Source of the DNA: Zingiber officinale
Lineage: Eukaryota > Streptophyta > Magnoliopsida > Zingiberales > Zingiberaceae
Assembly: GCF_018446385.1 (NCBI RefSeq)
Contig: NC_055986.1
Location: 28,269,593-28,333,592, forward strand
Direction: 5' to 3'
Length of the DNA stretch: 64,000 nt
The position numbers were made by a program, and so were the translations under genes. Shown in pieces: positions 1,446-58,155 of this stretch (within the stretch, counting starts at the first letter, position 1; the number at the start of each line of letters is the position of its first letter). The notes beneath the pieces were generated by a model. That model searched no databases, was not told the DNA's origin, and was given only the letters and a program-made list of their open reading frames with translations.

Positions 1446-1512
1446 CACTTAAGCAATGCATGCTCAAAAGACTAACTTTAAATCCTACTTACTGTAGGAA
1501 ACCAAGTGGATT

Positions 1513-4476
1513 TTGGACAGTGGTTGCTCCAAACATATGACTGGAGATCACACCAAGTTCACTCAACTCACTTACAAAAGCCTAGGAACAGTTGCCTTTG
1601 GAAACAACGACAAACTCAAGGTAATTGGTATAGGTAATATTGAATTAAAATTAGATTTTATAATTACAAATGTTTTACTTGTTGAAAATTTTAAATATAA
1701 TCTTCTAAGTATAAGTCAATTGTGTGATACTAGGTATAAGGTCAAATTTCTATCTACAGAGTGTTTAATCAAACATCTAGATAATCCTACCATAAGCCTA
1801 AAAGGTTTTAGAAAAGACAACATCTATGCCATCAACCTAACCATTTCTTCCATTAAGTGTTATTTAACACAAAAAGAAGAAACTTGGTTATGGTATAGGA
1901 GGATGTCTCACACCAACTTTAGAAATATAAGTAAACTAAATGGACTTGTAAAAGGCTTACCAAAGCTACCTAACTTAGATTCAACCATATGTAATGCTTG
2001 TCAACAAGGTAAACAAACTAAATCAACCCACAAACAAACAAATCAACCACAAACTAACTCAATCTTAGAACTCCTACATTTAGACCTTTTTGACTCCCAT
2101 GGAGTCAAATCTATAAATGGAAACTTATATTGTTTAGTAATTATAGACGATTATTCTAGGTTTACTTGGGTAAAATTCTTAAAACATAAAGATGAAACTT
2201 TTGAAATTTTTACAAATTTTTGCAAACAGATTGAAAACGAAAAAGATATTAAAATTAAAAGAATTAGGAGTGACAACGGGGGAGAATTTAAAAATCACAA
2301 CTTTAACAGTTTTTGTCTAGAAAATGGTTACCATCATGAGTTCTCATGCCCTAAAACCCCCCAACAAAATGGAATTGTAGAAAGAAAAAATAGAACCTTA
2401 CTTGAAGCTTCTAGAACAATGTTAAATGAGTATAACCTACCTAAATACTTTTGGGCAGAAGTCGTTAGTACAGCCTGCTATATACAGAACAGAACAACAA
2501 TAAATAAAACTCATAACAAAACGTTCTTCGAAATGTTTTATAATAAACAACCAAATATAAAATATTTTAAAGTATTTGGGTGCCCAGTCTTTATCTTAAA
2601 TACAAGAGAACACTTAGGAAAATTCACCTCTAAAATTGAAAATGGAATTTTTGTAGGATATTCCCTAAATAGTAGAGGCTACAGAATTTATAATAAGGTT
2701 ACCTTAAAAATTGAAGAAACTACTAATGTAAAATTTGAAGAAACTAAACAAGACATAGAACCTACACAAACACCTGAGTTTGTTCCAGAAATCAACCAAA
2801 CTCTAAGTCATGAAGAAGAGGAACAACATCAAGAGAGTCAACCCCCTAGAACAATAAGGGTTAACCCAAATCATCCAATTGATCAAATAATCGGTGACCC
2901 AGACTTAAGAGTTCAAACCAGATCATCTTTTAGAAACCTAAGTCAAATTTCATTAATTTCAAAAATTGAACCCAAAACTGTGGATGAATCCCTACTAGAC
3001 CCAGATTGGATTATAGCTATGCAAGAAGAACTAGCCCAATTTGAGCGTAATGAGGTTTGGGACCTAGTCCCACCACCTAAGAATAAGAAAATAATAGAAA
3101 CAAAATGGGTATTCAGAAACAAACTAAGTGAAACTGGGGAAATTACTAGAAATAAGGCTAGGCTGGTTGCCAAAGGATTTAGTCAAGTTGAAGGACTTGA
3201 CTATGATAAAACATATGCCCCAGTAGCCAGATTAGAATCCATTAGAATGTTACTAAGTTATGCAGCCCATAAGGGATTCAAACTATACCAAATGGATGTT
3301 AAGTCTGCCTTTCTTAATGGACTAATTAAAGAAGAAGTTTATGTAGGTCAGCCTCCTGGGTTTGAAAGTATAGAACACCCTGATTATGTTTTTAAATTAA
3401 AGAAAGCATTATATGGGCTTAAACAAGCACCCAGGGCATGGTATGAGAGGCTAACATCTTACTTAACATCTAAAGGATTCAAACAAGGTCAAATTGACCC
3501 AACCTTGTTTGTTAAATCATTAAATACAGACATATTTATTGCACAAATATATGTAGATGATATAATATTTGGCTCAACAAATTCAGAATTTTTAGAAGAA
3601 TTTATTAATCTAATGGAAAAAGAATTTGAAATGAGCTTAGTGGGAAAATTAACCTATTTCTTAGGATTACAAATCAAACAAACAAATGAAGGAAATTATA
3701 TTTATCAACATAAATACACCAAAGAATTACTTAAAAAATTCGGAATGGAAAATACAAAAGAAATAAAGACACCTATGGCAGTAAACACAATCTTAGACAG
3801 TGACCCAAATGGAAAACTAATTGATTTAAAACATTATAGAAGTGCAATAGGTAGCCTACTGTACTTAATTTTATTTGCAGTTAGTATGTGTGCTAGATAC
3901 CAAACTTATGCTAAGGAATCCCATTTGACACAAGTTAAAAGAATTTTTAGATATCTTAAAGGAACAACAAATGTAGGAATCTGGTATCCTAGGATAAATA
4001 ATTTTGAACTAATAGGGTATTCTGACTCAGATTATGCTGGATGCAAATTAGACCGCAAAAGCACAAGTGGTGGATGCCAATTATTAGGTTCATCACTTGT
4101 TAACTGGTTTAGTAGAAAGCAACATTGTGTTGCTCTATCTACAACTGAGTCAGAATACATAGCTATAGGCGAATTTGTTGCACAATTATTATGGATGATG
4201 CATACTCTAAAAGATTTCAACTTAAATATCACAAATGTAAAAGTATTAATTGACAATATAAGTTCAATTAACTTAACCAAGAATCCTGTGCATCATTCAA
4301 GAACCAAACATATTGAAATTATGCACCACTTCATCAGGGATCATGTTACTAAAGGTGATATTGAACTCAAGTACATTGAGTCCAAATCAAATTTAGCTGA
4401 CATTTTTACAAAACCACTCCCTGAAAGTGAATTTAGCAACTTACGGCGAAAATTAGGGATGTGCCTAATAGACTAG
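1513..4476 (+). CDS. pol: Copia Pol polyprotein: protease (partial), integrase, RT, RNase H
   Basis: A 987-residue frame, open from 1498 (stop TAG at 1495) with no ATG; the listed start is a TTG inside the protease motif, so it must be read as part of Gag-Pol or is a decayed copy. Domains in order: aspartic protease signature [10 protein letters not shown] (residues 2-11); GAG-pre-integrase and zinc region with CNACQQGK near 165; integrase core with [13 protein letters not shown] and a GIVERKN glutamate; RT from about 505 with [11 protein letters not shown] and the catalytic YVDD; RNase H with [17 protein letters not shown] and a final IFTKPL. The frame is unbroken to the stop. Odd points: the first zinc-site histidine is Tyr (WYRR instead of WHRR), and after LLYL the usual SRPDI-type stretch is missing (short in-frame deletion near residue 785). 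It is probably recent but may be impaired. Confidence 0.93.
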
Positions 4477-5558
4477 GATTTTTTTAAAAAAACTATTTTT
4501 AAAATAATGTTTTTTCAACTTATAAGTTAAAACTGTATATTTTCAAAACTTTCCATTTTTAGATTTTCAAAAACAGCTTTGGCCTTAGACTAGTTTTGAA
4601 TCCCTAGAAAGCATGTACCCATAGGACTAGTTTTTGAGCATCTCACCAACACCTTAGGCTTACCTTGCTTGTGTTTGAAAAACATAGAAAGGGGTGAGAT
4701 GCATAGGCTAACTGTCTGGACTTAAGATGCTTATTTCAGTGCATCAGCATAAGTCTGGACGTTAAATACAACTCAGATATTAATCAGATTAAAGTTCATC
4801 AGTCAAGTCAAACACTGACTGCTTATAATCAACTTAATCTGACTAACCAAGTGAAAGCTACTATCTTCTGATAGTTAGTTAGTACCTAATTGGTTAGACA
4901 GCTGGTTAAATTTAAGTATCAAGTTCAGGGGGAGAAATTAACTTTGTATGTTTAAAAAATGTTTTTTTTAAACTAACTTATTTTTAAAACACCAGTTTTC
5001 AAAAAGTTAAATTTAACTAAGTTTAATCCCACCTAATTTTTAAACCTGATTTTAAAAGTTGAATATTGCAAATTTAAACTTATTCAGTTTTGTAACATAT
5101 GCTTGAAAATTCAACTTTCCAAACTTAGCTTTTATCAAATTAGCCTTAAAAATTTATTTTACTTCTTGAAAAATTATTCTTACTTGTTTAATTTTTGCTT
5201 TGTTTTGAAAAATCGAAGTTGAAAATTTACCTTTTTGAAAAGTAAATGTTACTTAAACTTGAAAAGAAACTTTGGAAAACCTTATTTAAAATTTTTTTTC
5301 ATGTTTGAAAAATTAAAAACCTTAAATTTATACTTTTCAAAATTCAACTTGTCTCCCCCAAGTCAACTTGATTTTTTCCTTGGATTTAAAAATTGTTTAC
5401 CCTATGATTGTTTACCCTTGTTTTTTGATGAATGTCAAAGGGGGAGGGTTAGGCGGTTAAGTTAGATAAACCAAATTGAAAACACTAAAACTAACTTTAA
5501 AACCAATGTACCTATTTTTTTGCGTTCTTTCACTAACTTAACCAGGTTGTCATTCCAT
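4477..5558 (+). other. AT-rich 3' untranslated region of the copia element, with a 10-bp inverted repeat
   Basis: No credible ORF; an env-like gene as in some SIRE elements is not seen. An inverted repeat GCATCTCACC (4638-4647) / GGTGAGATGC (4693-4702) echoes the one at 611-667 on the other side of pol, with the same CATCTCAC core but different outer pairs. Purine-rich GGGGGAG motifs occur at about 4927 and 5440, besides the true PPT. Confidence 0.7.
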
Positions 5559-5573
5559 CAAAAAGGGGGAGAT
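5559..5573 (+). other. Polypurine tract of the SIRE-like element
   Basis: AAAAAGGGGGAGAT directly precedes TGTTGGTGC, the 5' end of the 3' LTR. This is the expected primer site for plus-strand DNA synthesis. Confidence 0.85.
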
Positions 5574-5681
5574 TGTTGGTGCGGGTAGCACTAACGGTTT
5601 AACCCAGGTTTTGATGAATGACAAATAGGTTAAGTTAGTTTTGTTATTATCTGACACTTTGATCGAGTGTGCAGGAGAAGT

Positions 5682-5837
5682 CCAGACAGGTCGACGGGCT
5701 GACCGGATGTCTGGCACGAAGTCCAGCTAGGTCGACGGGCTGACCGGATAGCTGGCGAGAAGTCCAAGCGGGTCGATGGGCTGACCGGACGCTTGGCGAG
5801 AAGTCCAAACGGGTCGACGGGCTGACCGGACGTCTGG
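5682..5837 (+). repeat. Four 41-bp tandem stem-loops with co-varying outer stems
   Basis: Units start at 5682, 5723, 5764 and 5805, exactly 41 bp apart. Each has the near-constant core GGTCGACGGGCTGACCGGA, with GGTC/GACC as inner stem. The outer arms differ but stay complementary: CCAGACA/TGTCTGG, CCAGCTA/TAGCTGG, CCAAGCG/CGCTTGG, and CCAAACG/CGTCTGG (one mismatch). Function unknown. Confidence 0.92.
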
Positions 5838-6247
5838 CAGGTAAGTGAGGTAAGTCACTGGAGGGGAGTGACTGCGAGGACGCGTTCCCGGGAAGGGAAC
5901 ATTATGCGTCGATCCGGCCTAGATACATTTCGGATGTCTAAGTCGAGATCGTGACTAGATTTCGGTCTCGGAAAGATGGAATCTAAGTCATACTAACTTG
6001 TGCTAATTCATACTATTATAAATGTGCTAATAATCTATGTTGCAGGGTATATATTGCCTCGGACTAACTTTGTTTTGCAGGAAAAGGGAGTTTTCTGGAA
6101 CAAGGTGGTCCGGGCGCCCGGAGGGGATCCGGGCGCCCGGAAGTCAAATTATATCCAAACCAAGCCATCACCACGTGGAGCATCTCGGTTTGAGCAGCGA
6201 CGTCACATTCCAGGCGCCCGGAAGGAATCCAGGCTCCCGGAACAGCA

Positions 6248-6255
6248 TATAAAAG
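6248..6255 (+). promoter_or_regulatory. TATA box of the SIRE-like LTR
   Basis: TATAAAAG lies directly downstream of the GGGCGCCC palindrome cluster. Transcription would start about 30 bp downstream, near 6280. Confidence 0.7.
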
Positions 6256-6627
6256 AAGCCCCAGGCAGGAGCTTCAGACAATAATTCATCTGAGAACTCT
6301 TCTACTGCTGGTATTGCTGCTCGACGTTCAGTGCGACGCCAACAACGCTCCGACAAAGTGCTCCTTCGGTTTTTATTTAATTTCCTTGTCGGTATTGCTT
6401 TATTTTCACTAGCATTTCCTGTATTCATTCTGTAATCATATTTCGACTTGTTAGTGATTGCCCAATGAAAGTGGTCAAGGACCACGGGCCTTCGAGTAGG
6501 AGTCGTCACAGGCTCCGAACGAAGTAAAAAACATTTGTGTCTATTTTACTTTTCCGCTGCGTTTATACTCTAAGTTTTCGAATCGATATTCACCCCCCCC
6601 CCCTCTATCGAATCTAACGGTCCTACA

Positions 6628-7017
6628 CTTCGTACCCCAGATGTACCTTCTTTGTCATCTAGAACCTGCAAAATGGTCTGAAAACACATTTCCTGCCAAA
6701 ACACTGGTTATGCAATCGTATACCGCAAACATATTTAGGAAACTACTTTATTTGTAATATCACTTCTCCTCTATCTTACCAACTCTTTTTCACAGTGTTC
6801 TTATCCTTCCTATTCACCCCTCCTATTTTTGCTATATCAAAGATAGCTTGATGTACTAATGTTTCTTGTCTCAATCGGGACTGGGCCCAGTTAGGTTTGA
6901 TCAATTATTATTACCCCTTACGAGGTTCCTGAGGAAGTGCTCGTCCGAGCTCCTTTATTTATTATTTTAACTAGCATTGGGCTATATTTTATCAAATATC
7001 TTTTCAAGATATTAGTC
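6628..7017. other. Intergenic or old-repeat sequence without a recognisable gene
   Basis: About 390 bp between the LTR end and the 109-bp array. Only short frames are present. The last part runs smoothly into the array, so it probably belongs to the same old gypsy element. Confidence 0.5.
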
Positions 7018-14797: not shown

Positions 14798-16732
14798 TGT
14801 TAGGGTTGAATTGTAGCTAGAGGGAGGGGGCTAAATAGCTCGTCGCACTTTGGTGATGTGCTTCTTCGATGATGTGCAGCGGAATAAAGAACAAGAAAAC
14901 ACACTCACAATGCTAACAAGTAGATTTACTTGGTATCCACCTCAAGAAGAAGTGACTAATCCAAGGATCCACACATGACGCTCACTCCATTAATAAAAAA
15001 ACTCCTTCTAGATAACTACCAGAGGTGGAGAAACCTTGTACAACACTCACACATACAACAACTCAACACAAGAAGAAAGATACAATGAATACAAATGAAA
15101 AACATTCTCTTCTTGCTTACTTGTCGCTTGTTGTTACCTCTTAAACCTTGGAAGTACACCATCACTTGTCCCCGAGAGACTTCAAGAACTGGTTGTGAGC
15201 AGTGGAGAAATCATGTGAAGAATCAGGAAGAATCGCGTGTGAAAGCTGCTGAGAAAAACTCTCACAACGGCTATATACTGTGCGCTCCTACGGCTCCTAA
15301 TCGATTGGGCTTCGTCCCAATCGATTGCCACGTCACATCCCAGCCATCGCAGTCATCCATCACCTACATCCTGCGCAACATTCGAATCCCAATAGATCGG
15401 CTGATCGATTGGGGAGGCTTGAATCGATTGGTCGATCAATTCAACCTTCTTCTGTGCTCTCGCGTCTGCATGAGAAAACTTGCCCCAATTAATTGACCAA
15501 TCTATTGGGGAGCCCAATCGATCGGCCGATATATTAGGGAGCATTTTGTGCTCGCGTTTTCACTTCCCAATCGATTGGTGGATCGATTGGGCCAGCCTTC
15601 TTCGCAGCACACCTTCAATCGATCAGCTAATCGATTGAACCACAGTTCAATCGATCGGTTGATTGATTGACTTCCCATTGACTTGCTTAACTCAAGTCTA
15701 GGGTTCCCAATTCGAACATCCAGTCAATCATGACCAGTTGGAATTCGTCATGCCTAGCATCTGGTCAACCTTGACCTGTCGAGACTTCTTCACCAAGTGC
15801 CCGATCAACCCTTTGACCCACTTGAACTTTTCTTCTCGTGCCAAGTGTCCGGTCAACCTTGACCCACTTAGACTTACCGTCTCGTGCCAAGTATCCGGTC
15901 CTCCATGACCCACTTGGACTTCCACTAGATGTCCAGTCACCCTTGACCCATCTGGATTTCCTCGTGCCAAGTATCCGGTCAATCCTTTGACCTAATTGGG
16001 CTTCCCAACACCGGGTGTCCGGTCAATCTTGACCCACCTAGATCTCCACGTGCCAAGCTTCACTCACCAGGTCTTTCCATTTGCCTGGCTTCACTCACCA
16101 GGACTTTCCATCTGCATGACTTCACTCACCAGGACTATCACCTAGCTTCACTCACTAGGGTTTTCACCTAGCTTCACTCATCAGGATTTTCCCACTGCCC
16201 GGCTTCACTCACCGAAACTTTCACCTACCTAGCTTCACTCATTAGGTCTTTCACCTAGCTTCACTCACCAGAATTTTCCATTGCCCGACTTCACTCACCG
16301 GGACTTTCACCTGCCTAGTTTCACTCACTAGGGCTTTCACCTAGCTTCACTCACCAGGATTTTCTAACTGCCTACCTTCACTCACTAGGTCTTTCACCTA
16401 GCTTCACTCACCAAGATTTTCTAACTGCCTACCTTCACTCACTAGGTCTTTCACCTGGCTTCAATCACCAAGATTTTCCCTTATCTAACCTCCAATTAGG
16501 ACTTTCGTAATCAAGTATCCGGTCAACCTTAACCTACTTGACTCTTCTTCACATCTAACTGGTTAGTCCTTGACCAGAAGGAAATTGTATGAACAATCTC
16601 CCCAATCGGACGATTGCATCTGCAATCTCCATGTATTGTCAAACATTGAAACTCAAATATCAAGACTCAAGCTTGAGCCAACTCAAGTTTAGTCAACCAA
16701 GTTAGCTTTGACGTAGGGATATTGCACCAACA
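14798..16732 (-). mobile_element. Solo LTR rich in hairpins (1,935 bp), TSD ATAAG
   Basis: The plus strand reads TGTTAGGGTTGAATTG...GCACCAACA, flanked by ATAAG at 14793-14797 and 16733-16737. Reading by homology with 55746-57194, transcription is on the minus strand. It contains CAATCGATTG palindromes (15298-15660) followed on the minus strand by a TATA-like AGTATATAGCC (about 15270), two-tier hairpins (15720-16040), and a long run of stem-loops with the loop CTTCACTCA (16060-16480). It lies at the 3' side of the coiled-coil ORF, and the same junction is present in the second duplicate (38246). Confidence 0.92.
16060..16500. repeat. Run of stem-loops sharing loop CTTCACTCA with co-varying stems
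   Basis: Roughly twenty units of about 20 bp stem-loop plus spacer (often GACTTTCAC). Stems include CCTGG/CCAGG, CCTAG/CTAGG and CCCG.../CGGG around the same loop. Copies with broken pairing also occur. The same arrangement is at 37630-37990 and 56811-57060. Confidence 0.85.
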
Positions 16733-17574: not shown

Positions 17575-18538
17575 GCGAGTGAAGGCCTAGCGAGCACCCA
17601 CATTCGGCAAAGTTTGCTTGAACGTAAAGACACTTAGCCTTATCTATGACTTTTAGTACATTACCGACCGACCGAAGGCCGAGTGAGCACCCATGTGCTC
17701 ATATATGCTCGGACGGGCAAAGCCCGCTCGAGCGTAAAGATATTTAGCCTTATATATGATTCTCAACATGTTACAAGCCGACCGAAGGCCGAGCGAGCAT
17801 CCACGTGCTCATATATGCTCGGTCGGGAATATCCCGCCCGAACGTAAAGGCATTTAGCCTTATATATGATTCTCAACATGTTACCAGTCGATCGAAGGTC
17901 GAGCGAGCACCCGTGTGCTCATATATGCTCGAATGGGCAAAGCCTGCCCAAGCGTAAAGGCATTTAGCCTTATATATGATTCTTAACATGTTACTGGTCG
18001 ACCGAACATTGAGCAAGCACCCATGTGGTCATATATGCTAGGTCGGGCAAAGTCCACCCGAGCGTAAAGGTATTTATCCTCATATATGATTCTCAACATG
18101 TTATCGGCCGACCTAAGGCCGAGCGAGTGCCCATTTGTTCATATACGTTCGGCCTAGCAAAGTCCACCCGAGCATAAAGACATTTAGCCTTATATATGAT
18201 TCTCAACATGTTACCGGCGGACCGAAGGCCGACCAAGCACCCACGTGCTCATATATGCTCGGTCGGGAATAGCCCATCCGAACGTAAAGGCATTTAGCCT
18301 TATATATGATTCTCAACATGTTACCGGTCGACCGAAGGCCGAGCTAGCACTCATGTATTCATATATGCTCGAATGGGCAAAGTCCGCTCGAGCGTAAAGC
18401 CATTTAGCCTTATATATGATTCTTAACATGTTACCGGTCGACTGAGCGAGCACCCATGTGGTCATATATGCTCGGTCGGGCAAAGTCCACCCGAGCGTAA
18501 ATGCATTTATCCTCATATATGATTCTCAACATGTTACC
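17575..18538. repeat. 110-bp satellite array, copy 1, left part
   Basis: About nine units of roughly 110 bp. A typical unit has GGCCGACCGAAGGCC, GAGCACCCATGTGCTC, CGGGCAAAGCCCG, AAGGCATTTAGCCTT and ATGATTCTCAACATGTTACC. Each of the first four is self-complementary, so a unit is a chain of short stem-loops. The array is cut after TTACC by the gag-only element and resumes at 35639. Confidence 0.93.
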
Positions 18539-20612: not shown

Positions 20613-23298
20613 TGTTGGTTGCTACTTGGAAAGCCTAGAGGTTCCACTGTACAAAAATTTTGTACAAAGGTCTGAACCTTTTCCTAGCTACCATGTGTTC
20701 TTTTAAATTAAATTTTGGATCGCCTGCGGAACTTAACACGTTTGATCCAAAACTTAATCTATTTGTTCTTTTAGGTTTTGACTTGGATCTCCTGCGGAAC
20801 TTAACACGTTCGACCCAAATCACCTTAAGTTATTAATTCCATTAAATATTAATTTCCATAATTGGTTCCCAGTACTGACGTGGCGAGGCACATGGCCTTC
20901 TTGGATATGGGAGCAACCACCACCGACTAGACAAAACCTTTTATAGAAATCTAATATTTAATTTCCTAAAATAACTTTAGGTTAACCGAAAAGAACAATC
21001 AAATCACAAGGAAAAATAAAACAAAAGAACACAACTTCGAAAAACATATTCGAAATACTAGAATCGTAAGCCTCTTGTATTTGGTATTATTTCCATAAAT
21101 AACTAGCATGATGCGGAAAGAAAAATTACTAGTTATACCTTTAAGAAAGACCTCTTGATCTTCTACCGTATTCCTCTTCTAACCTCGGACGTTGTGTGGG
21201 CAACGATCTTCCGAGATGAGAATCCACCAAAGCACCTTCTTCTACTTTCTTCAAGTTTCGGCCAAGCACAAAGCTTCCAAAAGATGAAGATCTTTTTCCA
21301 CCAACCAAGCTCCAAGGGATACAAGCTTTCTCTCCTTCTTCTTCTTCTTCTCCAAGTAGTATCCGGCCACCACAAGAGCTCCAAGCAAATAGAGAAGGTT
21401 CGGCCACCACCAAGAGGAAGAGAGGAAGAGAGGTTGGCCGGCCACAACACCAAGGAAAAGAGGGAGAGAAATAATAGAGGTTATTCACCTGAAGCCTTCT
21501 CTACCCCCTCTTTTATAATCCTTGGTCTTGGCAAATAAGGAAAAATTAATAAAACCTTCCTTAATTCTTCTGCCATGAAAAATAAAAATTAATTAAAAAT
21601 TAATTTCCTTTTTCCAACTTATTTGGCCGACCACCTACAATCCACAAATCAAGGAAAGTTTTAATTAAAACAAAAATTAAAACTTCCTAATTTGTTTTTA
21701 GAAATTTATAAAAATTTCTCTAATAATTTTATCCCTTCATGATTGGTTAATAAAAAGGAAATTTAATAAATTAAAATCTTTCTTTTAAACATGTGGATAA
21801 AAAGAAAATTATCTCTAAAAATTAAAATCTCTTTTAATCTACAAATAAGGAAAGATATCAAATCTTTTCTCAATCTTTTGTAGAAACTAATAAAAGAGAA
21901 TTATTAATTTTTAAACTTTCTTTTAAATCATGAACATGGTTAAAAAGGAAAGTTTTCTTAAAATTTAAAATCCTCCTTTAATCAATAAATAAGGAAAGAT
22001 TTCAAATTTTAAACTCTCTTTTAAACATGTAGATGATTTACAAATAAGGAAAGTTTTTACCAAAAATTAAAACCATCCTTTTAATCTACAAATAAGGAAA
22101 GAGATTAATCTCTTCTCTTAATCTTTTGTAGAAAGTTATAAAAGGAAATTTTTAATTTTTAAACTCTCTTTTAAAATCATGATATCCACATAAGAAATAA
22201 TTTTAATAAAAATCCTTTTAATATTCTAGTGGCCGGCCACCTAAGCTTGGGACCCAAGCTTTGGCCGGCCACCTACATGACTCATCCACTTGGTCTTGGC
22301 CGGCCCTAGCTTGGGTTCCAAGCTAGCTTGGCCGGCCCCATTGGATAGGTAAGAAAGTGGGTATGCGGTGGGTATAAATCTCTATATACTAGAGGCTACG
22401 ATAGGGACCGAGAGGAGGAATTAGTTTTGGTCTCCCGATGAAATTAAGCATCCCGTGTTCGCCCCGAACACACAACTAAATTTCATCAATAATAATTCAT
22501 TCCACTAAAGAACTATTATTGAACTACCGCACCAATCCCAAATTACATTTTGGGCTCCTTCTTATTATGAGCGTGTTAGTCTCCCTGTGTTTAAGATATC
22601 GAATGTCCACTAATTAAGTGAGTTACTGACAACTCATTTAATTAATATCTAAGTCCAAGAGTAGTACCACTCAACCTTATTATCATGTCGGACTAAGTCC
22701 ACCTGCAGGGTTTAACATGACAATCCTTATGAGCTCCTCTTGAGGACATTATCAACCTAGTATCTCTAGGACACAGTTTCCTTCTATAATCAACAACACA
22801 CACTATAAGTGATACCATTTCCCAACTTATCGGGTTTATTGATTTATCGAACTAAATCTCACCCATTGATAAATTAAAGAAATAAATATCAAATATATGT
22901 GCTTGTTATTATATTAGGATTAAGAGCACACACTTCCATAATAACTAAGGTCTTTGTTTCTTTATAAAGTCAGTATAAAAGAAACGACCTCTAATGGTCC
23001 TACTCAATACACTCTAAGTGTACTAGTGTAATTATATAGTTAAGATAAACTAATACCTAATTACACTACGACCTTCCAATGGTTTGTTCCTTTCCATTAT
23101 GGTCGTGAGCTACTGTTTATAATTTATAAGGTACTGATAACATGATCCTCTGTGTGTGACACCACACACCATGTTATCTACAATATAAATTAATTGAACA
23201 ACTTCATTTATCATAAATGTAGACATTTGACCAATGTGATTCTTATTTCTAGATAAATGTTTATACCAAAAGCTAGGCTTTTAGTATACACTCTAACA
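20613..23298 (-). mobile_element. 3' LTR of the inner copia element (2,686 bp)
   Basis: Plus-strand ends are TGTTGGTTGCTACTTGG and ATACACTCTAACA. On the minus strand it has a TATA-like TTATAAAAGAGGG near 21515 and then a GC-rich transcribed leader (about 21140-21480) whose short frames are not genes. Several GGCCGGCC sites (22230-22340) and the shared block 20864-20944 lie inside. Confidence 0.93.
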
Positions 23299-26200
23299 AT
23301 CTCCCACTTATACTAAAAGACTAAGCTGTCATATCTACTGCCATACATCTTATTTCCAACCCTTCAACATGCCCATCAAAAGCTCTTGCCTTAAGGACCT
23401 TAGTGAAAGGATCTATATGTCATCATCTGATGCATTCTAGGCAGCAACAACTTCTCCTCGTTTATACGATTTCTCGTATTGGGTGGTACTTGCGCTCTAT
23501 TGTGTTTACTTGCCTTTATAGACTTATGGTTTCTTCGAGTTTACCAATATTATTACAATAAATTGTAATAATCTTTGGACAAACCAGAAATCATATCTAA
23601 GTCTATCTTGAGGTTATTGAGTCATTCAGCTTTTATGGCTACCTCAGAGGCTTGCCATATACTAAACTTCTATGGTGGAGTCCAGAAAAACACCTATGCT
23701 TATCACTCTTCCATAGTTATGACTTTACCTCCTAAAGTAAACACAAAACCCCGAGGTTGACTTATTATTGTCCCTATCCGATTGGAAGTCAAAATCCATG
23801 CAACCCACAAGGACCAAATTAACTGCCTTGTAAGCTAGCATATAATCTCTAGTGCATCTAAGGTACTTCAATATATGCTTTACTACAGTCCACTGTCCTT
23901 GTCCAGAGTTACTTTGATATCTGCCAACTATGCCCTTGGCAAAACAGATTTCTTATCTCGTGCATAGCATTCATTAGGCTTCCGACAGCCGAAGCATAAA
24001 GAACTGCCTTTATTTCCTTTATCTCCTTTAATGTCTACAGAGACATATCTTTAGATAAAGTTACTCCATCCTGAAAAGGTAAGAAACCTTTCTTGGAGTT
24101 TTGCATGCTTTAAAACGAGCAAGGATTTTTCCGATGTATGAAGCTTGGGATAAGTAAAATATTCTTTTTATTGCGATCCCTTATTACTTTGATCTCAAGA
24201 ATATATACATTCTCCCAAGTCCTTTATATCTAATTGTTTGGACAACCATACCCTTACTTCTGACAACATTTTGATATTGTTTCCAACTACAAAAAATGTT
24301 ATCTACGTATAGTACAAGAAATACCACCACGCTTCCATCACACCTTTTGTGTACACAAGACTTATCCGGCTACTAAATAAATCCATAGGTCTGAATTACT
24401 TTGATAAACCGGATGTTCCAAGACCTTGAAGCTTTGCCTCAGTCCATAGACTGATTGAGCTTTACACAAGATGCTCTTAGCCCTTTGCAATGAACCCTTC
24501 TGGTTGCTTTATATGGATGCTTTCTTCAAGACTTCCATTAAGGAATGTTGTCTTGACATCCACTTGCCAAATAGATAAAAGAATCCGGATAGACTTAAGC
24601 ATGGCTACCAGTGAAAAAAGTTTCCTTTTTCATCAAGCCTTGCTTTGAAGGTTTCTACCTTCCTGTCTATCCCTCTTTTCCTATTATAGACCTTTTACAC
24701 CCAAAGGCTTTTACACCACTTGGTGGTTCTACAAGCTTCCAGATTTTATTAGAATACATATATTCTAATTCTATTATTCATTACTCTTTGCCAAGATGCT
24801 GCATATTTATCTTGGAGTGCTTCGTCATATGTCCGGAGATCAGGTTTATGTCCTTCAGGATCGAGTCCAAAAACTCTCCCAAAACATGAACCTATTTAGG
24901 TTGCCTAACAACCCTCCCACTATGACAAGACACTTTATGCAATTGTGTATCATTTGTGATACGTGTTGCATTTTCTTGTGGTATCTCATCTTGTACAGTT
25001 GGTACTAGGTTAGACATGTCCTTTATTATTTCCTTAAGAACAAATTTACTTATGAGCACGTGGTTCATTATATAGTCCTTTTCTAAAAATCAGTCATTGA
25101 TGCTAACAATGACCTTCTGATTTTTAAGACTATAAACCTACTTTTGTTTATCTAGGATAACTTACAAACAAGTGAACTCCTATCCAACTTATCATTGTCT
25201 CTCTTTAACATATGTGCTGGATTACCCGAATCCGAATATGCTTCAAAATAGGTTTTCACCTATTCAGCAATTCTATATGAGTAGAGAGTTCTAACTTGGA
25301 AGGTACTATGTTCACTTTCGTTTTCAGAGTTTATCCTTAAAATAAATTTGGTAATTTTTTGAATAACTCATCATCTATCTAATTATTCCATAAGAGTCCT
25401 TTACCTTCTTTCTACTACACCATTCTGTTGGGGTGTACCAGATGCAGTTAGTTGGGATTGAAATCCAACTTCTGATAAGTGACTCCTAAAATCTCTCAAA
25501 AGGTACTTGCCACTACGATCTTCCATAGTGACTTTTTACTTTAACATTTCTCCGCATCAACCTTGTACTCTTTGAACTAATCAAAGTACTTAGTCTTGCG
25601 GTACATTAAGTAAATTTATTTGTATCTTGAATAGTTATCTATTAAATAGACAAAATATTCAATACTACCTCTTGTCTGGATAGTCATAGGATCACACAAA
25701 TCAGAATAAACCGTTTTCAACATATCTTTGACTCTATACCCCTTGGACTTAAAAGCTTCTTGGTTATTTTCCTTCCAAGTAAGACTCGTAGGTTGGAAAG
25801 ATTTCCACTACCAATGAACCCAAAAGTTCATCAGCTACCAATGAAACCTACTCAAGTATAACCTAGCTTTAGATGCCAAAGATATAATTGGTTCATTTCC
25901 GAAGGTTGCTTTCTCTTAAATTAGAAGATGTGTTACTTATTTCCATTTGTTGCATCGTGGGAGTTTATTGGATTATAAATTGTCAACCATCATACCAGAA
26001 TAGATAACTTCCCTATTTTTCTTGATAACAACTTTGTTATCAAAATAGACACAATATCTATAATAGTTTAGAAACTGAAATCAGGTTCTTTCTAAACTTG
26101 GTACGTAAAGACAATTACTTAAAATCCATATTTTATTCTTATCAAAGGATAAACATCTCCCACTGCAACAGTTACCACTTTTACAGTAGTGCCCATGTGG

Positions 26201-27816
26201 ACGGTGATTTACCTTTCATTTAGTTGTGGGGTTTTTCCTGGAACCCTGCAATGAATTGCAGACATGATTAATGGCATCTTGTATCTACACTCCAGGTTCT
26301 GGTAGATAACACCACTAGACATGTTTCAACTAATGAATTAAATACACCTAAATTGTTCTTAGTTCTAAGAAGACAGTCTACCTTAATGTCCAAGTCTTAT
26401 TTCCAATCATTACAATTGGGACTACTAAGTCTTTTTCTATAGTATGACTACTAGGGATTGACAAATATCCTAAGAATCACAAAAATATTTGGTCAAGATC
26501 AACTCCTTAAAATCTCCATGAATTTTGTGTATACAAAATCAAAGAGAGGAGATTTTATTCATTAATTTTATTATCTCGTCAACTTTACTTTATGACGAAT
26601 AAAATTAATAGTTGATCTGTCTTTGATCAAATATTTGGTCAAAACTCTTTGAATTTAAAATAACATTGATTCCTCAAACAATATTATTTAAATTCACCAA
26701 CAACTCAAACACCGTGAATTTTGCATGCCACGTTAGTGTGGATGTATACAAATTCATCATTTGTAAGAGAAGAGTTTTACCCATTGACTATCTTTTAAAT
26801 ATAACTTTTGACAAATAAAATTACCTCAAACACCATGAATCTTGTATGCCACGTTAGTGTGGACGTATACAAATTCAAACATTTGTAAGAGGGGTTTATT
26901 AATTTTATTATATTGCCAATCTAGTTTTATGACAAATCAATAGTTGGTTTCCCTTTGGTCACACAAGTGATAGTAGTGACTCCGTTGGGGAGGATACTAT
27001 TAAATGTGTCTAAGTGTATACCATTACTTGACACTAAGTCCATTAATAAGATTATGCCCCTTCCGTTGGGGAAGATCACACGCTCTTAATTAACTTCCTA
27101 TAGTCATCCAAAATGAAAGTTCATTTCTAGTGATCCACAAACAAGCTCATCCGTTATGGAGGAAGGCACTCAGAGCCAACGTGCAAGCTTGTTTGCATCA
27201 CTTACAAACCAGTAATGGAGACCATGGGATTTACTTAAAAATCCCTCTCCCACTTAGTTATTTATAAATGAGGAATTTTAACTATGCTAGCCTACTAAAT
27301 ATGTAAACCAACATGCACACACAACACAATATAAAAGCAATAAATAGAAAATCTAATTTTCAACTATTATGGCTTTTATCTCTAGTTGTCCTCCGTGTGT
27401 TGTCATCCCAAGCTGCTGCCATATTTGGCCACCGCCACCAGATCCATCTTGCTCCTAGTTCCACTGCGCCTCTGGTCCTTAGAAGGTTCCACGCTTTGCA
27501 AGATTCGATCCATGACATAAATAGAATTTTACATTTTGATCCTATATTCCATAAAAGGAATGTACATGTATCTAGATCAAAATAAAATCCTAATAAAACT
27601 AAATCTGTATTTTAATACAATCATGCACACACAAATAAATGCCCTTGACATGTCCAAGGGTCCAATCACACACATAATAACTAAAAGCCATAATAGTTGG
27701 ATCCTGCATCCATAAAGTTAGCACATCCTACTATTAACCTGTCTAAATTATGTATGACATGTGCATAATTAAACTAATACCAAATACAGAGGCAAAACCC
27801 TAGCTCTGATACCAAT
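23299..27816 (-). pseudogene. pol: Decayed copia gag-pol of the inner element
   Basis: Minus-strand remnants in order: gag and protease region unrecognisable in 25000-27800; RT around 24540-24600 with a WQVDVKTTFLNG stretch; catalytic box at 24298-24309 reading YVDN instead of YVDD (Asp to Asn); RNase H around 23600-23960 (GQGQWTVVKHILKYL-like and SDRD fragments in shifting frames). No frame exceeds about 90 codons. Bases 23299-23312 are the PPT and 27803-27814 the PBS. It cannot encode working enzymes. Confidence 0.85.
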
Positions 27817-30492
27817 TGTTGGTTGCTACTTAGAGGTTCCACTGTACAAAAATTTTGTACAAAGGTCTGAACCTTTTCCTAGCTACCATGTGTTCTTTTA
27901 AATTAAATTTTGGATCGCCTGCGGAACTTAACACGTTTGATCCAAAACTTAATCTATTTGTTCTTTTAGGTTTTGACTTGGATCTCCTGCGGAACTTAAC
28001 ACGTTCGACCCAAATCACCTTAAGTTATTAATTCCATTAAATATTAATTTCCATAATTGGTTCCCAGTACTGACGTGGCGAGGCACATGGCCTTCTTGGA
28101 TATGGGAGCAACCACCACCGACTAGACAAAACCTTTTATAGAAATCTAATATTTAATTTCCTAAAATAACTTTAGGTTAACCGAAAAGAACAATCAAATC
28201 ACAAGGAAAAATAAAACAAAAGAACACAACTTCGAAAAATATATTCGAAATACTAGAATCGTAAGCCTCTTGTATTTGGTATTATTTCCATAAATAACTA
28301 GCATGATGCGGAAAGAAAAATTACTAGTTATACCTTTTAGAAAGACCTCTTGATCTTCTACCGTATTCCTCTTCTAACCTCGGACGTTGTGTGGGCAACG
28401 ATCTTCCGAGATGAGAATCCACCAAAGCACCTTCTTCTACTTTCTTCAAGTTTCGGCCAAGCACAAAGCTTCCAAAAGATGAAGATCTTTTTCCACCAAC
28501 CAAGCTCCAAGGGATACAAGCTTTCTCTCCTTCTTCTTCTTCTTCTCCAAGTAGTATCCGGCCACCACAAGAGCTCCAAGCAAATAGAGAAGGTTCGGCC
28601 ACCACCAAGAGGAAGAGAGGAAGAGAGGTTGGCCGGCCACAACACCAAGGAAAAGAGGGAGAGAAATAATAGAGGTTATTCACCTGAAGCCTTCTCTACC
28701 CCCTCTTTTATAATCCTTGGTCTTGGCAAATAAGGAAAATTAATAAAACCTTCCTTAATTCTTTTGCCATGAAAAAGAAAAATTAATTAAAAATTAATTT
28801 CCTTTTTCCAACTTATTTGGCCGGCCACCTACAATCCACAAATCAAGGAAAGTTTTAATTAAAACAAAAATTAAAACTTCCTAATTTGTTTTTAGAAATT
28901 TATAAAAATTTCTCTAATAATTTTATCCCTTCATGATTGGTTAATAAAAAGGAAATTTAATAAATTAAAATCTTTCTTTTAAACATGTGGATAAAAAGAA
29001 AATTATCTCTAAAAATTAAAATCTCTTTTAATCTACAAATAAGGAAAGATATCAAATCTTTTCTCAATCTTTTGTAGAAACTAATAAAAGAGAATTATTA
29101 ATTTTTAAACTTTCTTTTAAATCATGAACATGGTTAAAAAGGAAAGTTTTCTTAAAATTTAAAATCCTCCTTTAATCAATAAATAAGGAAAGATTTCAAA
29201 TTTTAAACTCTCTTTTAAACATGTAGATGATTTACAAATAAGGAAAGTTTTTACCAAAAATTAAAACCATCCTTTTAATCTACAAATAAGGAAAGAGATT
29301 AATCTCTTCTCTTAATCTTTTGTAGAAAGTTATAAAAGGAAATTTTTAATTTTTAAACTCTCTTTTAAAATCATGATATCCACATAAGAAATAATTTTAA
29401 TAAAAATCCCTTTAATATTCTAGTGGCCGACCACCTAAGCTTGGGACCCAAGCTTTGGCCGGCCACCTACATGACTCATCCACTTGGTCTTGGCCGGCCC
29501 TAGTTTGGGTTCCAAGCTAGCTTGGCCGGCCCCATTGGATGGGTAAGAAAGTGGGTATACGGTGGGTATAAATCTCTATATACTAGAGGCTACGATAGGG
29601 ACCGAGAGGAGGAATTGGTTTTGGTCTCCCGATGAAATTAAGCATCCCGTGTTCGCCCCGAACACACAACTAAATTTCATCAATAATAATTCATTCCACT
29701 AAAGAACTATTATTGAACTACCGCACCAATCCCAAATTACATTTTGGGCTCCTTCTTATTATGAGCGTGTTAGTCTCCCTGTGTTTAAGATATCGAATGT
29801 CCACTAATTAAGTGAGTTACTGACAACTCATTTAATTAATATCTAAGTCTAAGAGTAGTACCACTCAACCTTATTATCATGTCGGACTAAGTCCACCTGC
29901 AGGGTTTAACATGACAATCCTTATGAGCTCCTCTTGAGGACATTATCAACCTAGTATCTCTAGGACACAGTTTCCTTCTATAATCAACAACACACACTAT
30001 AAGTGATACCATTTCCCAACTTATCGGGTTTATTGATTTATCGAACTAAATCTCACCCATTGATAAATTAAAGAAATAAATATCAAATATATGTGCTTGT
30101 TATTATATTAGGATTAAGAGCACACACTTCCATAATAACTGAGGTCTTTGTTTCTTTATAAAGTCAGTATAAAAGAAACGACCTCTAATGGTCCTACTCA
30201 ATACACTCTAAGTGTACTAGTGTAATTATATAGTTAAGATAAACTAATACCTAATTACACTACGACCTTCCAATGGTTTGTTCCTTTCCATTATGGTCGT
30301 GAGCTACTATTTATAATTTATAAGGTACTGATAACATGATCCTCTGTGTGTGACACCACACACCATGTTATCTACAATATAAATTAATTAAACAACTTCA
30401 TTTATCATAAATGTAGACATTTGACCAATGTGATTCTTATTTCTAGATAAATGTTTGTACCAAAAGCTAGGCTTTTAGTATACACTCTAACA
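27817..30492 (-). mobile_element. 5' LTR of the inner copia element (2,676 bp)
   Basis: Near-identical to 20613-23298. It begins (plus strand) right after the PBS complement GCTCTGATACCA plus two bases, and ends CTCTAACA followed by AGTAG. The shared block is at 28059-28136 and a TATA-like box near 28715 (minus). Confidence 0.93.
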
Positions 30493-30639
30493 AGTAGCTG
30501 ATGACTCAGGTTGGTCAATTTGAGTATTTAGTACTAACTGGGTTTTTACCGGTTAGTTAACCTAAATCGATTCATGTATGTTGTTTTATAGTTGGTTGAA
30601 GTGTATTTATGATTTTAGATTAAATAATTTTTAAGATAA

Positions 30640-36840: not shown

Positions 36841-38246
36841 GGCTATATACTATGCGCTCCTGCGGCTCCCAATCGATTGGGCTTCGTCCCAATCGATTGC
36901 CACGTCACATCCCAGCCATCGCAACCATCCATCACCTACATCCTGTGCAACAGTCGAATCCCAATCGATCGGCTGATCGATTGGGGAGGCTTGAATCGAT
37001 TGGCATATCGATCAACCTTCTTCTGTGCTCTCGCGTCTGCGCGAGAAAACTTGCCCCAATCGATTGACCAATCTATTGGGGAGCCCAATTGATTGGCCGA
37101 TATATTAGGGAGCATTTTGTGCTCGCGTTTTCACTTCCCAATCGATTGGTGGATCGATTGGGCCAGCCTTCTTCGCAGCACACCTTCAATCGATCGGCTG
37201 ATCGATTGAACCACAGTTCAATCGATCGGTTGATTGATTGACTTCCCATTGACTTGCTTAACTCAAGTCTAGGGTCCTCAATTCGAACATCCAGTTAACC
37301 ATGACCTGTTGGAACTCCTCATGTCTAGCATCTGGTCAACCTTGACCTGTCGGGACTTCTTCGCCAAGTGTCCGATCAACCCTTTGACCCACTTGAACTT
37401 TTCTTCTTGTGTCAGGTGTCCGGTCAACCTTGACCCAATTAGACTTACCGTCTCATGCCAAGTGTCCGGTCCTCCATGATCTACTTGGACTTCCACTAGA
37501 TGTCCGGTCACCCTTGGCCCATCTGGATTTCCTCATGCCAAGTATCCGGTCAATCCTTTGACCTACTTGGACTTCCCAACACCGGGTGTCCAGTCAATCT
37601 TGACCCACCTAGATTTCCACGTGCCTAGCTTCACTCACCAGGTCTTTCCATCTACCTGGCTTCACTCACCAGGACTTTCCATCTGCCTGACTTCACTCAC
37701 TAGGATTATCACTTAGCTTCACTCACTAGGGTTTTCACCAAACTTCACTCATCAGGATTTTTCCATTGCCCGGCTTCACTCACCAGAACTTTCACCTACC
37801 TAGCTTCACTCACTAGATCTTTCACCTAACTTCACTCACCAAAATTTTCCATTGCCCGACTTCATTCACCGGGACTTTCACCTGCCTAGTTTCACTCACT
37901 ATGGTTTTCACATAGCTTCACTCACTAGGATTTTCTAACTGTCTACCTTCACTTACTAGGTCTTTCACCTGGTTTCAATCACCAAGATTTTCCCTTACCT
38001 AACCTCTAGTTAGGACTTTCCTAGTCAAGTATCCGGTCAACCTTAACCCACTTGACTCTTCTTCACATCTAACTGGTCAGTCCTTGACCAGAAGGAAATT
38101 GTATCAACAATCTCCCCAATCGGACGATTGCATCTGCAATCTCCATGTATTGTCAAACATCGAAACCCAAACATCAAGACTCAAGCTTGAGCCAACTCAA
38201 GTTTAGTCAACCAAGTTAGCCTTGACGTAGGGATATTACACCAACA
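36841..38246 (-). mobile_element. Truncated second copy of the hairpin-rich solo LTR (duplicate of 15269-16732)
   Basis: It matches 15269-16732 throughout, including CAATCGATTG palindromes, two-tier hairpins and the CTTCACTCA stem-loops (37630-37990, fewer units), and ends CCAACA at 38246 followed by ATAAG. Its left end is not an LTR terminus but abuts satellite sequence, which marks a duplication junction rather than an insertion. Confidence 0.92.
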
Positions 38247-55328: not shown

Positions 55329-58155
55329 TTATCTCGGGTGATATCTATAATACCAATTTAAATTTTTTATTTTTCTAGAATTAGATGAACAAGCATAATT
55401 TTTCAAATTATCTACTTGAATTTTCAAATCATTATTTTCAAGTTTCAATTTTTCATTTTCCAAATTTGATTTATCTAATTCTTCTAGAGGGCAGGATTTA
55501 GCTAAAATTATTTTTAAATTTTTTATTTCTCTTTCTAATTTACAGCAGTCTTTAGTTAATAACTTAATAAATTTATAAAGTTTATCCGGAGGAAGAGAAC
55601 GTACCTGACTTACCTTGTCGAGTTCGTTGTCCGTATCTCCCCCTGAACTACTGCTTTCTTCTGACGAAGCTCCCCCTTCATCGATGCTCTCGATGCTCAT
55701 TTCGGAAGAGGTCGACTCGCAGTCTTCGTCTTGATGACTTGCCATTGTTAGGACCAAAAGTAGCTAGAGGGGGGGTGAATAGCTCGTCGCTTGGCGTTGC
55801 TTGTTTCTTCAAGGATATGCAGCGGAAAATACAGAAACAAATCACACAACGCTAACAAGGTTGGTTTACTTGGTATCCACCTCACAAGAGGTGACTAGTC
55901 CAAGGATCCACACCACGCACGCACCCTCCACTATGAAACACTCCTTTTCGGTAACTACCGAGGGCGGAGAAGCCCTACAAGACTCTCAGTACAAGAAGAA
56001 GAAAGGGAAATACAAGTTAAGCAAAAGCTTACAAGATGTGCAGTAAAAACCCTAACCCTAACTTCTTCCTCTTGCAATAGATCCGCCTCTTGACTTGGAA
56101 AGCCTCCAAGAACCTTCAAGAACTGGCGATCACGTGCTTGTAGAGAGTTGTGGAGGAGCTGGAATGAATCTGAGAAGAGCTCGTAGCGATGCCGAAGACC
56201 ACGCTCGCTTTAAACCAGCGCCAGCGGTCGGATCCCGATCGATTCAAATGATCCGAATCGATCGGGAGGCTGGATCGATCCACGGATCGATCCGACCATT
56301 TCAGAAGCTCCGATCGATCCACGGATCGATCCGGCGCTTATCGCGCGCGAAGATCGCCCGATCGATCGGCCGATCGATCGGGACCTGGATCGATCCACGG
56401 ATCGATCCGGAAGTTCGATTGGAATGATCGGATCGATCCACCGATCGATCACCTGGATCGATCCACGGATCGATCCGACCTGGTTTTGCCCAAAATCAAG
56501 TCCCAATCCTTCCTAACCAACATCCGGTCAACCTTGACTGTTGGTACATCATGCCTCGCATCTGGTCACCCTTGACCTGCTAGGACTCCCCACCAAGTGT
56601 CCGGTCAATCCCTTTGACCCACTTGGACTTTTACTCGTCGTGTCAAGTATCCGGTCCATTGACCTACTTGGAGTTCCACCGGATGTCCGGTCAACCTTGA
56701 CCCATCTGGACTTCCTTCCTTGCCAAGTATCCAGTCAATCCTTTGACCTACTTAGACTTCCCAACACCAGATGTCCGATCATCCTTGATCCATCTGGATT
56801 TCCTTCCTTGCCTGGCTTCACTCACCAGGACTTTCACCTAGCTTCACTCACTAGGGTTTTCCATCTGCCTAGCTTCACTCACTAGGACTTTCACCTGGCT
56901 TCACTCACCAGGACTTTCACCTAGCTTCACTCACTAGGATTTCCTTCTGCCTAGCTTCACTCACTAGGACTTTCACCTAGCTTCACTCACTAGGATTTCC
57001 TTCTGCCTAGCTTCACTCACTAGGACTTCCTTCTGCCTAACTTGACAGTTAGGACTTCCCAGTCAAGTATCCGGTCAACCTTGACCTACTTGACTCTTCT
57101 TCGATCAATATCTTATTGTCAAACATCTAAACCCAAACCAAGACTCAGCTTGGTTAACCAGGTCAACCTTGACCTGAGGGATTTTGCACCAACAGCCATT
57201 AGAGCAAGTCCGGAGAATGCCTCAACTTCCGACTCCGACGACGTATCGTCCCACGTCGCCTTTAGGGCCTTTCGCTTCTGGATAGGCTTCTTACCCTTCT
57301 CCTTGTCCTTGTTCTTCAGCTTGGGGCAGTTGTCCTTGACGTGCCCTTCTTCGTCGCAGTGGTAGCAGCGGATCGTTCTTCTCTTCTTTCCCTGCGGATG
57401 GTTAGTAGATCTGGATTTACAAAGTTTCTTGAATCTTCTTACCATCATTACCATTTCCTCGTCGTCGAGAGAGGATTCAGATTCTGGTTCGTCTCTCGAG
57501 GCTTTGAGGGCGACGTTGTTTTTAGGCTCCTTCATTCCTGCACATCTTGACTCATGCACTTCAAATGGTGAAAAGAATTCTTCTAATGAAGTCTTTTCTA
57601 AATCTTTAGAAATGTAAAATGCATCTACTAGTGATGCCCATTTTGAATTTCTAGGGAAGGAATTTAAAGCGTACCTGAGCGAATCTCGGTTACTTACCTC
57701 TACTCCGAAATTCGTGAGTCCGGTGATGATTTCTTTTATTCTGGAGTGCAGATGTACGACTGTCTCGTCTTCCCCAAGTCGCAGGCTGGTGAGCTGATTT
57801 CGAAGCAGATCTCGTCTAGCGAGCTTGGCTTCGGACGTACCTTCATGCAGCTCGAGGAACTTCTCCCAAAGTTCCTTTGCGGAGTTATATTTACCGATCC
57901 TGTTGACTTCTTAAGGCGGAAGGACACTTAGCAGATGGTACTCTGCTTTGCCGTTCGCCACGAAGTCGGCCTGCTCCTTTTTTGTCTATTTATCTATTTC
58001 CTTGTCCTCTGGAGCTTCAAAGCCAAATTTCATTGTTAAAAATAATTCAATATCTGTAGTAAGAAATACCTGCATCAGTTTTTTCCAGGTAGCGAAGTCC
58101 CCTTCATATTTCGGCGGGTGGATGCTTCGTTCGGCGGTTAGTCCTCCTGAAGCGT
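55329..58155 (-). pseudogene. gag: Copia gag, mostly open, split by a solo LTR
   Basis: The minus strand from about 58155: N-terminal part with PPKYEGDF-type start and two in-frame stops (near 57985 and 57925), then a long open stretch with a capsid-like UBN2-type domain (LHSRIKEIITGL, RYALNSFPRN), zinc knuckle CYHCDEEGHVKDNC (57367-57326, all four ligands intact), Lys-rich linker, and after the solo LTR (57194-55746) the acidic Ser-rich and coiled-coil C-terminus (55745-55329). The solo LTR lies between two codons' worth of duplicated GCCAT, and the two sides are in the same frame. It stops at 55329. Confidence 0.87.
55746..57194 (-). mobile_element. Solo LTR rich in palindromes and hairpins (1,449 bp), TSD GCCAT
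   Basis: The plus strand reads TGTTAGGACCAAAAG...TTTTGCACCAACA, flanked by GCCAT at 55741-55745 and 57195-57199. It is related to the LTR at 14798-16732. It contains GGATCGATCC palindromes (56270-56480), two-tier hairpins with GGTCAA/TTGACC cores (56520-56800) and CTTCACTCA stem-loops (56811-57060). TATA-like GGTTTAAAGC (minus, near 56210) follows the palindromes. It interrupts gag of the surrounding element. Confidence 0.94.

Follow-up and report, generated by a model that had tools for sequence, protein, structure and literature searches.

Tandem two-tier hairpins with covarying outer arms in the LTR of a Zingiber officinale Copia retrotransposon with Sirevirus hallmarks

Results and Discussion

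A stretch of 64,000 nucleotides of the Zingiber officinale genome (contig NC_055986.1), referred to here as the window, carries four tandem hairpins in the long terminal repeat (LTR) of a Copia retrotransposon. The outer arms of these hairpins differ from unit to unit and match each other within each unit. Together with related arrays of the same genome, these results revealed, in more than one family, a near-constant core flanked by arms that covary, so that pairing persists as the letters drift. It is tentatively proposed, as the leading candidate though short of being probable, that a DNA-level fold is maintained by selection across transposition cycles in a palindromic and likely cis-regulatory region of a Sirevirus-type LTR. 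The coordinates of all features are displayed in Table 1.

Table 1. Features of the window that are discussed in the text (position 1 is the first nucleotide of the window).
Feature	Position	Strand	Details
Hairpin unit 1	5682..5714	+	arm CCAGACA 5682-5688, core 5689-5707, arm TGTCTGG 5708-5714; 7/7 arm pairs
Hairpin unit 2	5723..5755	+	CCAGCTA / TAGCTGG; 7/7 arm pairs
Hairpin unit 3	5764..5796	+	CCAAGCG / CGCTTGG; loop C>T within the core; 7/7 arm pairs
Hairpin unit 4	5805..5837	+	CCAAACG / CGTCTGG; one A.C mismatch, 6/7 Watson-Crick
3' LTR of the Copia element	5574..6627	+	followed by the target-site duplicate CTTCG, 6628-6632
Polypurine tract (PPT)	5564..5573	+	AGGGGGAG + AT; Sirevirus-type AT/TG junction (cf. 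PMC2829016, in part)
Inverted repeat around the PPT/LTR junction	5532..5639	+	arms 5532-5555 and 5616-5639; 24 nt, 88%
Four G+C-rich palindromic boxes upstream of the TATA box	6109..6241	+	TCCGGGCGCCCGGA at 6109 and 6128; variants TCCAGGCGCCCGGA at 6209, TCCAGGCTCCCGGA at 6228
TATA box, likely	6248..6255	+	TATAAAAG
pol frame of the same element	1498..4476	+	integrase core and Copia-type reverse transcriptase (RVT_2)
GGTC...GACC array, more decayed, in another LTR	15719..16034	-	PPT-like TGGGGAGATTGTT 570 bases upstream
GGTC...GACC array in another LTR	37290..37605	-	PPT-like TGGGGAGATTGTT 513 bases upstream
GGTC...GACC array	56523..56790	-	PPT-like word absent from the 1.8 kb upstream
Second hairpin type, loop TGAGTGAAG	16066..16441	-	
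Second hairpin type, loop TGAGTGAAG	37637-37955	-	
Second hairpin type, loop TGAGTGAAG	56824-57019	-	

The hairpin array

Each unit is a 33-nt two-tier dyad in which outer 7-bp arms enclose an inner GGTC/GACC stem with a loop of 8 nt and a GGA bulge on one side. The units start exactly 41 bp apart, as the initial annotation had stated, and are separated by 8-nt spacers (CACGAAGT or CGAGAAGT). The outer arms that it had described as individually matched in every unit were likewise found, unit 4 with its single mismatch. The core that it took to be kept throughout is identical in units 1, 2 and 4 (GGTCGACGGGCTGACCGGA), and unit 3 departs from it by one substitution, beginning GGTCGATGGG. The array begins 108 bases into the 3' LTR and hence lies in U3, where it had been placed.

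The motif GGTCNANGNNNTGACCGGA has eight matches in the window with at most one mismatch, four of them being the array units, and none in 100 shuffles. These shuffles, together with the arm-dealing test and the by-rule cluster test given below, rule out chance as the origin of the array and its pairing. A search of Rfam with window positions 5560-6640 gave three matches of 22.9, 20.5 and 16.8 bits, below the gathering scores of 72, 58 and 35, and a known Rfam family was discarded as the identity of the array since no match reached the gathering score. An exact scan of viral contigs for a 24-base motif returned 0 stretches.

The host element

The element presents the Copia-type domain order, with Retrotran_gag_2 in the gag frame and gag_pre-integrs, rve and RVT_2 in the pol frame. 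Its 5' LTR was found at positions 4115-5224 of locus L049, directly preceded by the same 5-bp CTTCG that follows the 3' LTR. A primer site (TGGTATCAGAGC), which we take to be of the tRNA-Met type, stands after the 5' LTR at position 5227 of that locus. The terminal PPT is followed by the AT/TG attachment site (AGGGGGAG AT TG, 5564-5575), and further GGGGGA runs are visible in the sequence.

The inverted repeat at the PPT/3' LTR junction, with arms of 88% identity, is a feature described for Sireviruses in excerpts of PMC2829016; almost half of the other Copia elements also carry it there, so it is not exclusive. The AGGGGGAG-AT/TG junction and this inverted repeat both fit the Sirevirus description in the available part of that article. 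Regarding the palindromic motifs of Sireviruses, palindromes and their placement before the TATA box are present here. A CGG-CCG core is clear in two of the boxes at 6109-6241 and partial in the 41-bp units (A/G GGTC...GACCGG). The motif copies amount to four units of one type and four boxes of another, whereas the excerpts of PMC2829016 give at least eight of one motif per element.

It should also be noted that the two LTRs of this element hold different numbers of units, five in the 5' LTR (L049 4230-4412) versus four in the 3' LTR (window 5682-5837), which indicates unit gain or loss at or after insertion. The five units of the 5' LTR lack the unit 4 mismatch and carry mutations of their own in two arms.

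Covariation of the outer arms

Four units are too few to establish covariation, and the claim is therefore carried by related arrays. The core motif was searched in the window and in 20 arbitrary 10-kb genome stretches, one per contig (C1-C20). One fixed rule gave 13 clusters with 60 units, a set that includes one unrelated cluster (L046); eight genuine arrays were found in six of the 20 arbitrary stretches and four more in the window. The related arrays present other perfect arm pairs, such as CCAAGTA/TACTTGG, CCAAGTG/CACTTGG and CCAGATG/CATCTGG, as well as TCAAGTA/TACTTGA, CTTAGCA/TGCTAAG and ACCAACA/TGTTGGT. Concerning their context, among 13 arrays (these 12 genuine ones and that of L049) seven have a PPT-like GGGGGAGATTGTT with at most two mismatches within 1.8 kb upstream and two others have the primer site downstream; four have neither, one of them having 842 bases upstream.

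Pairing was assessed in two ways. In the dealing test, the 3' arms were reassigned among the units within each cluster. In the tree-based null, parsimony events on a FastTree tree were re-placed on the branches, which is a simplified version of the R-scape idea and not R-scape itself. In the by-rule set, 334 of the 420 arm positions pair, versus 248 ± 10 in the deals (largest 290; 0/10000 reached the observed value), and the tree null was also exceeded (G = 268 versus 103 ± 27, 0/1000). Hence, the arms covary beyond duplication and drift, as had been suggested from the four units.

A second set of 12 arrays was chosen by eye, in which clusters resembling other repeats were omitted, as was a real but truncated array (L045 420-524), and L044 was widened. 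Its 74 candidate units showed 409 of 518 paired positions versus 286 ± 11 (largest 340, 0/10000). Of these units 69 were kept, 64 of them distinct, and five were dropped for three core mismatches, one of which (in L044) had 6/7 arm pairs; units one base out of register, e.g. TACCAAC in L041 and at window position 56539, were kept and scored as mismatched. The tree null gave G = 295 versus 105 ± 31 (0/2000), with 0/1000 for each of two more seeds. The result held without the GGTCGA family of the window and L030 (G 230 versus 95, largest 215, 0/1000), with the arbitrary stretches alone (219 versus 67, 0/1000), and in the subset with at least three pairs per unit (0/1000), whose selection is partly circular. 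Pairings shifted by -2, -1, 1 or 2 fell below the null mean.

Considered per position, arm pairs 3 and 5-7 were individually significant (p < 0.05) and pairs 1, 2 and 4 were not, pair 2 being nearly constant C-G. The inner-stem pairs are conserved and showed no significant covariation in the tree-null test on the hand-chosen set. The type of covariation that marks conserved RNAs is present in the outer arms and not in the inner stem; it does not distinguish RNA from DNA. A Watson-Crick pair was swapped for another on a single branch 11 times, with 77-79 one-sided changes.

The outer stems stop sharply at 7 bp. In the hand-chosen set, 53-61 of the 69 units pair at each arm position, versus 9/69 one base further out and 4/69 two bases out; in the by-rule set, the values are 43-52 of 60, 7/60 and 5/60.

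A first alternative is that the arms are not kept up at all, differently armed palindromes having been built once, long ago, and their unit types then shuffled and inherited. This is distinctly improbable, because the tree null, which takes inheritance into account, was exceeded in all runs (one partly circular), and these tests disfavour simple inheritance as the sole cause. Moreover, the last unit of L030 carries CCAGATG/CATCTGG where the window family has CCAGACG/CGTCTGG. The copies of the window family, on the other hand, offer this alternative some points in its favour.

Copies of the window family

With window positions 5600-5900 as the query, 40 scored copies out of 2151 candidates were obtained and all 40 were compared; this set contains LTR pairs as well as probable allelic copies. 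In 16/40 copies the four arm pairs are all exact and identical. Most differences are unit chimeras or private mutations of one arm; shared arm pairs and one-sided differences are what inheritance without upkeep would leave. Perfectly paired units number 126/160 (36, 32, 34 and 24 of 40 at unit positions 1 to 4). Unit 4 is the perfect CCAGACG/CGTCTGG in 24/40 copies, and the mismatch of the window (CCAAACG) recurs in 3/40, namely L001 (the window itself), L009 and L010, on three chromosomes. As for the comparison of family copies that the initial annotation had recommended, the arms barely covary within these 40 copies; covariation sits between unit types and between families, and barely inside the young family.

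Six of the 160 units (in L023, L024, L027, L057, L059 and L060) are chimeras with at least three mismatches, in which the 5' arm comes from one unit and the 3' arm from another, with the shared core between them. This indicates that a broken stem is tolerated at least temporarily. Two chimera types occur in two copies each (L027/L060 and L024/L057), which argues that matching is not essential in every round; L027 and L060 share the same chimera at different insertion sites, as their pre-LTR flanks differ. The partner LTR of L027 was not found in 1.7 kb at one expected distance. The chimeras can be explained by the loss of one unit from five-unit arrays such as those of L049 and L028, with exchange inside the core. 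In L028 (1290-1944) two hairpin arrays, of four and five units, lie 472 bases apart, which could reflect partial duplication of an LTR or the insertion of one element into another. Furthermore, L021/L022 and L006/L017 have identical pre-LTR flanks on different large contigs, and the assembly seems to hold both haplotypes.

Among the variants of the 40 copies, 71/121 are C>T or G>A. Singletons occur at similar rates in stems (27 at 88 sites) and elsewhere (54 at 213 sites). The lower stem variation that a selected fold would leave is seen for variants in at least five copies, with 0 at the 88 stem sites versus 11 at the 213 others (Fisher p = 0.030, with cut-offs set after seeing the table). 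It disappears when all shared variants are counted (16 versus 27 singletons in stems; 24 versus 54 elsewhere), and the stem depletion of widely shared variants is therefore weak evidence of selection. Variants in two to four copies number 16 in stems and 13 elsewhere, being in part chimeras and probably recurrent deamination; that such low-frequency shared variants are not depleted in stems also agrees with arms that are inherited and not kept up. No repaired pair was seen by eye among the private changes of the family copies, which argues against the mending of resident copies.

The folding molecule

The strands of the window array differ in their predicted folding. The sense RNA is predicted to fold otherwise (z -0.78), whereas exactly four hairpins are predicted for the antisense RNA (z -2.84); with DNA parameters, three of the four hairpins are predicted for the sense strand (z -1.13). 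The mean arm-pair probability of this array is 0.06 for sense RNA, 0.54 for antisense RNA, and 0.65 and 0.91 for the two DNA strands.

The genomic RNA carries U3 at its 3' end, and hairpins are used elsewhere by retroelement RNAs. Selection of the fold in the sense genomic RNA (for packaging, dimerisation, export or stability) could therefore be considered, and sense-RNA folding is indeed predicted for three other arrays, with arm-pair probabilities of 0.98 (L045), 0.70 (L030) and 0.69 (L041). Nevertheless, this reading has only a slim chance of being right. The antisense arm-pair probability equals or exceeds that of the sense RNA in 12/12 arrays (one tie, at 0.98), the same holds for 11/12 arrays with DNA parameters, and the antisense z is more negative in 12/13 arrays (60 shuffles each). 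Two decayed arrays fold poorly on all strands.

The mismatches point in the same direction. Mismatches of the G.T type (G.U in RNA) number 20, 12 in the arrays and 8 in the family, versus 25 of the A.C type (13 and 12), in a count that omits 8/160 family units (six chimeras and two gapped units) and the units of other arrays with more than two mismatches. No sense-strand wobble excess is found among these arm mismatches. This, with the predicted misfold of the sense strand, argues against sense-RNA selection without proving DNA, and sense RNA was rejected on these grounds as the lead explanation. Regarding the conserved-RNA features, the counts give no sign that wobble pairs are preferred, and the window array lacks the predicted sense-strand fold, even though such a fold is predicted for certain other arrays. 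It seems that the strand evidence leans to DNA over genomic RNA; an antisense transcript is also possible as the folding molecule.

Selection and templated correction

Under the favoured explanation, selection on a DNA-level fold, the array would be part of the repeated-motif region of the Sirevirus-type Copia LTR, which is palindromic and likely cis-regulatory. The inner GGTC/GACC stem would stay nearly constant and the 7-bp outer stem would be free to drift provided that its arms match. Mismatched arms may be continually generated by cytosine deamination and by unequal exchange through the identical cores, and active elements would retain or regain matched arms. The folded state would most likely be DNA. 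It could form within U3 of the integrated promoter, as a hairpin or cruciform, or alternatively in the minus-strand cDNA while this is single-stranded, immediately after the PPT at the start of plus-strand synthesis.

That same location could favour a possible, if unlikely, alternative in which matching is a by-product of replication. Each unit of the minus-strand cDNA would fold, and the reverse transcriptase would switch strand during plus-strand synthesis and copy one arm onto the other. Plus-strand synthesis begins at the LTR start, and the array lies only 108 bases past it; a clean minus-strand fold beside this start favours copying, and the fold predicted for the antisense (minus) strand is the cleaner one (12/12 arrays with RNA and 11/12 with DNA parameters). 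In addition, the last two arm letters of the 29 perfect units are CG, TG, CA and TA in 1, 12, 5 and 11 cases, as copied deaminations predict.

However, repeated copying should erase both the outer T.C or T.T mismatch, which is kept in 52/69 units, and the one-sided GGA/AGA bulge, which is kept in 64/69, the latter count being partly built in since the bulge belongs to the search motif. The sharp outer limit at 7 bp also speaks for an architecture under selection more than for copying. Separate insertions retain mismatched chimeras, and the G>A change of unit 4 occurs on three chromosomes, which recurrent deamination could explain, and is absent from the 5' LTR of the window element. Both a selected fold and arm correction, the two options of the initial annotation, stay in play; of the forms of the former, the sense-RNA one is the least supported by wobble counts and predicted folding.

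A further idea, which we consider quite unlikely, is that each transposition proofreads the arms through a self-templating minus-strand cDNA past the PPT. The boxes of the LTR promoter could in this manner drift fast and escape sequence-specific silencing while keeping the fold.

Another alternative is that a dimeric DNA-binding protein reads both halves of the dyad, with the GGTC...GACC core as its site. The inner core is a palindrome with hardly any variation, and some unit types contain an inverted TTGACC, presumably a W-box-like word. Mainly stress-related sites are reported among Sirevirus motifs in the excerpts of PMC2829016. This explanation is highly improbable, as the variable arms offer no fixed half-site, so that one protein leaves their mutual matching unexplained, and TTGACC is absent from the units of the window family.

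Relation to known LTR palindromes

The initial annotation knew of no described function for such hairpins. Palindromes in Sirevirus LTRs have nonetheless been published: as far as the available text goes, it is established that the upper LTR half of Sireviruses contains palindromic repeated motifs (RM boxes; PMC2829016), and in maize the palindrome-rich LTR region is a small-RNA hotspot that is thought to be cis-regulatory (PMC10760457, PMC5311732). The kind of structure is already known, and what is added here is the measurement of covariation and the two-tier covarying form.

Like the RM boxes of the PMC2829016 excerpts, the units are multi-copy palindromes that contain G+C-rich dyads and precede the TATA box in the upper LTR half, and their inner GGTC...GACCGG core is similar to the published motifs CGGTCGACCG and CGGTCTGACCG. 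However, the RM boxes described there are short, at 10-20 bp, share a single consensus within an element and start 200-400 bp into the LTR, whereas the array found here starts at 108 bp, and each of its 41-bp units holds a 33-nt dyad whose arms vary from neighbour to neighbour and match within the unit. The maize cluster is similarly hairpin-forming, located in a cis-region and highly variable in sequence; small-RNA mapping and predicted folding are reported for it in the accessible parts of PMC10760457 and PMC5311732, and unit-level covariation and a strand comparison are not among the analyses given there. The U3 tandem repeats of Tnt1-like plant Copia elements can also regulate transcription, but paired variable arms are not described for them in the excerpts of PMC3601003. 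Among the matches listed from the open-licence literature, no title or abstract opening mentions covarying arms in LTR hairpins.

Template switching that turns a quasipalindrome into a palindrome would yield matched arms, yet simple copying ill fits the sharp stem limit and the kept bulge observed here.

The prior Sirevirus accounts, as far as they extend, do not decide between conservation of the fold and conservation of the sequence. The array makes selection versus templated correction directly testable, with a bearing on how the host may recognise such LTRs through small RNAs.

A second hairpin type and other repeats

A second hairpin type, with the loop TGAGTGAAG, mostly adjoins the first and was found in 12 clusters with 113 units. 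Its arms pair beyond chance, with 452/565 positions paired versus 409 ± 6 in the dealing test without a tree (largest 432, 0/5000), the commonest being CCTAG/CTAGG (28) and CCTGG/CCAGG (22).

Other repeats were also noted. Another palindrome cluster, of the GATCGGTC...GACCGATC type, is located at L045 5579-5722, downstream of a hairpin array. The window contains 110-bp tandem repeats with several small palindromes (GAGCACCCATGTGCTC, GGGCAAAGCCC) at 39188-41447, 35757-36805 and 17623-18538; the first of these precedes an LTR, given the orientation of that element, and is possibly similar to the boxes of the Sirevirus linker domain. Finally, a 2.66-kb direct repeat (20636-23299 and 27831-30493) has copies that are 99.4% identical and separated by 7.2 kb. 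A primer site TGGTATCAGAGC lies nearby, at 27803-27814 on the minus strand, and the two copies probably represent the long LTRs of an element that inserted recently.
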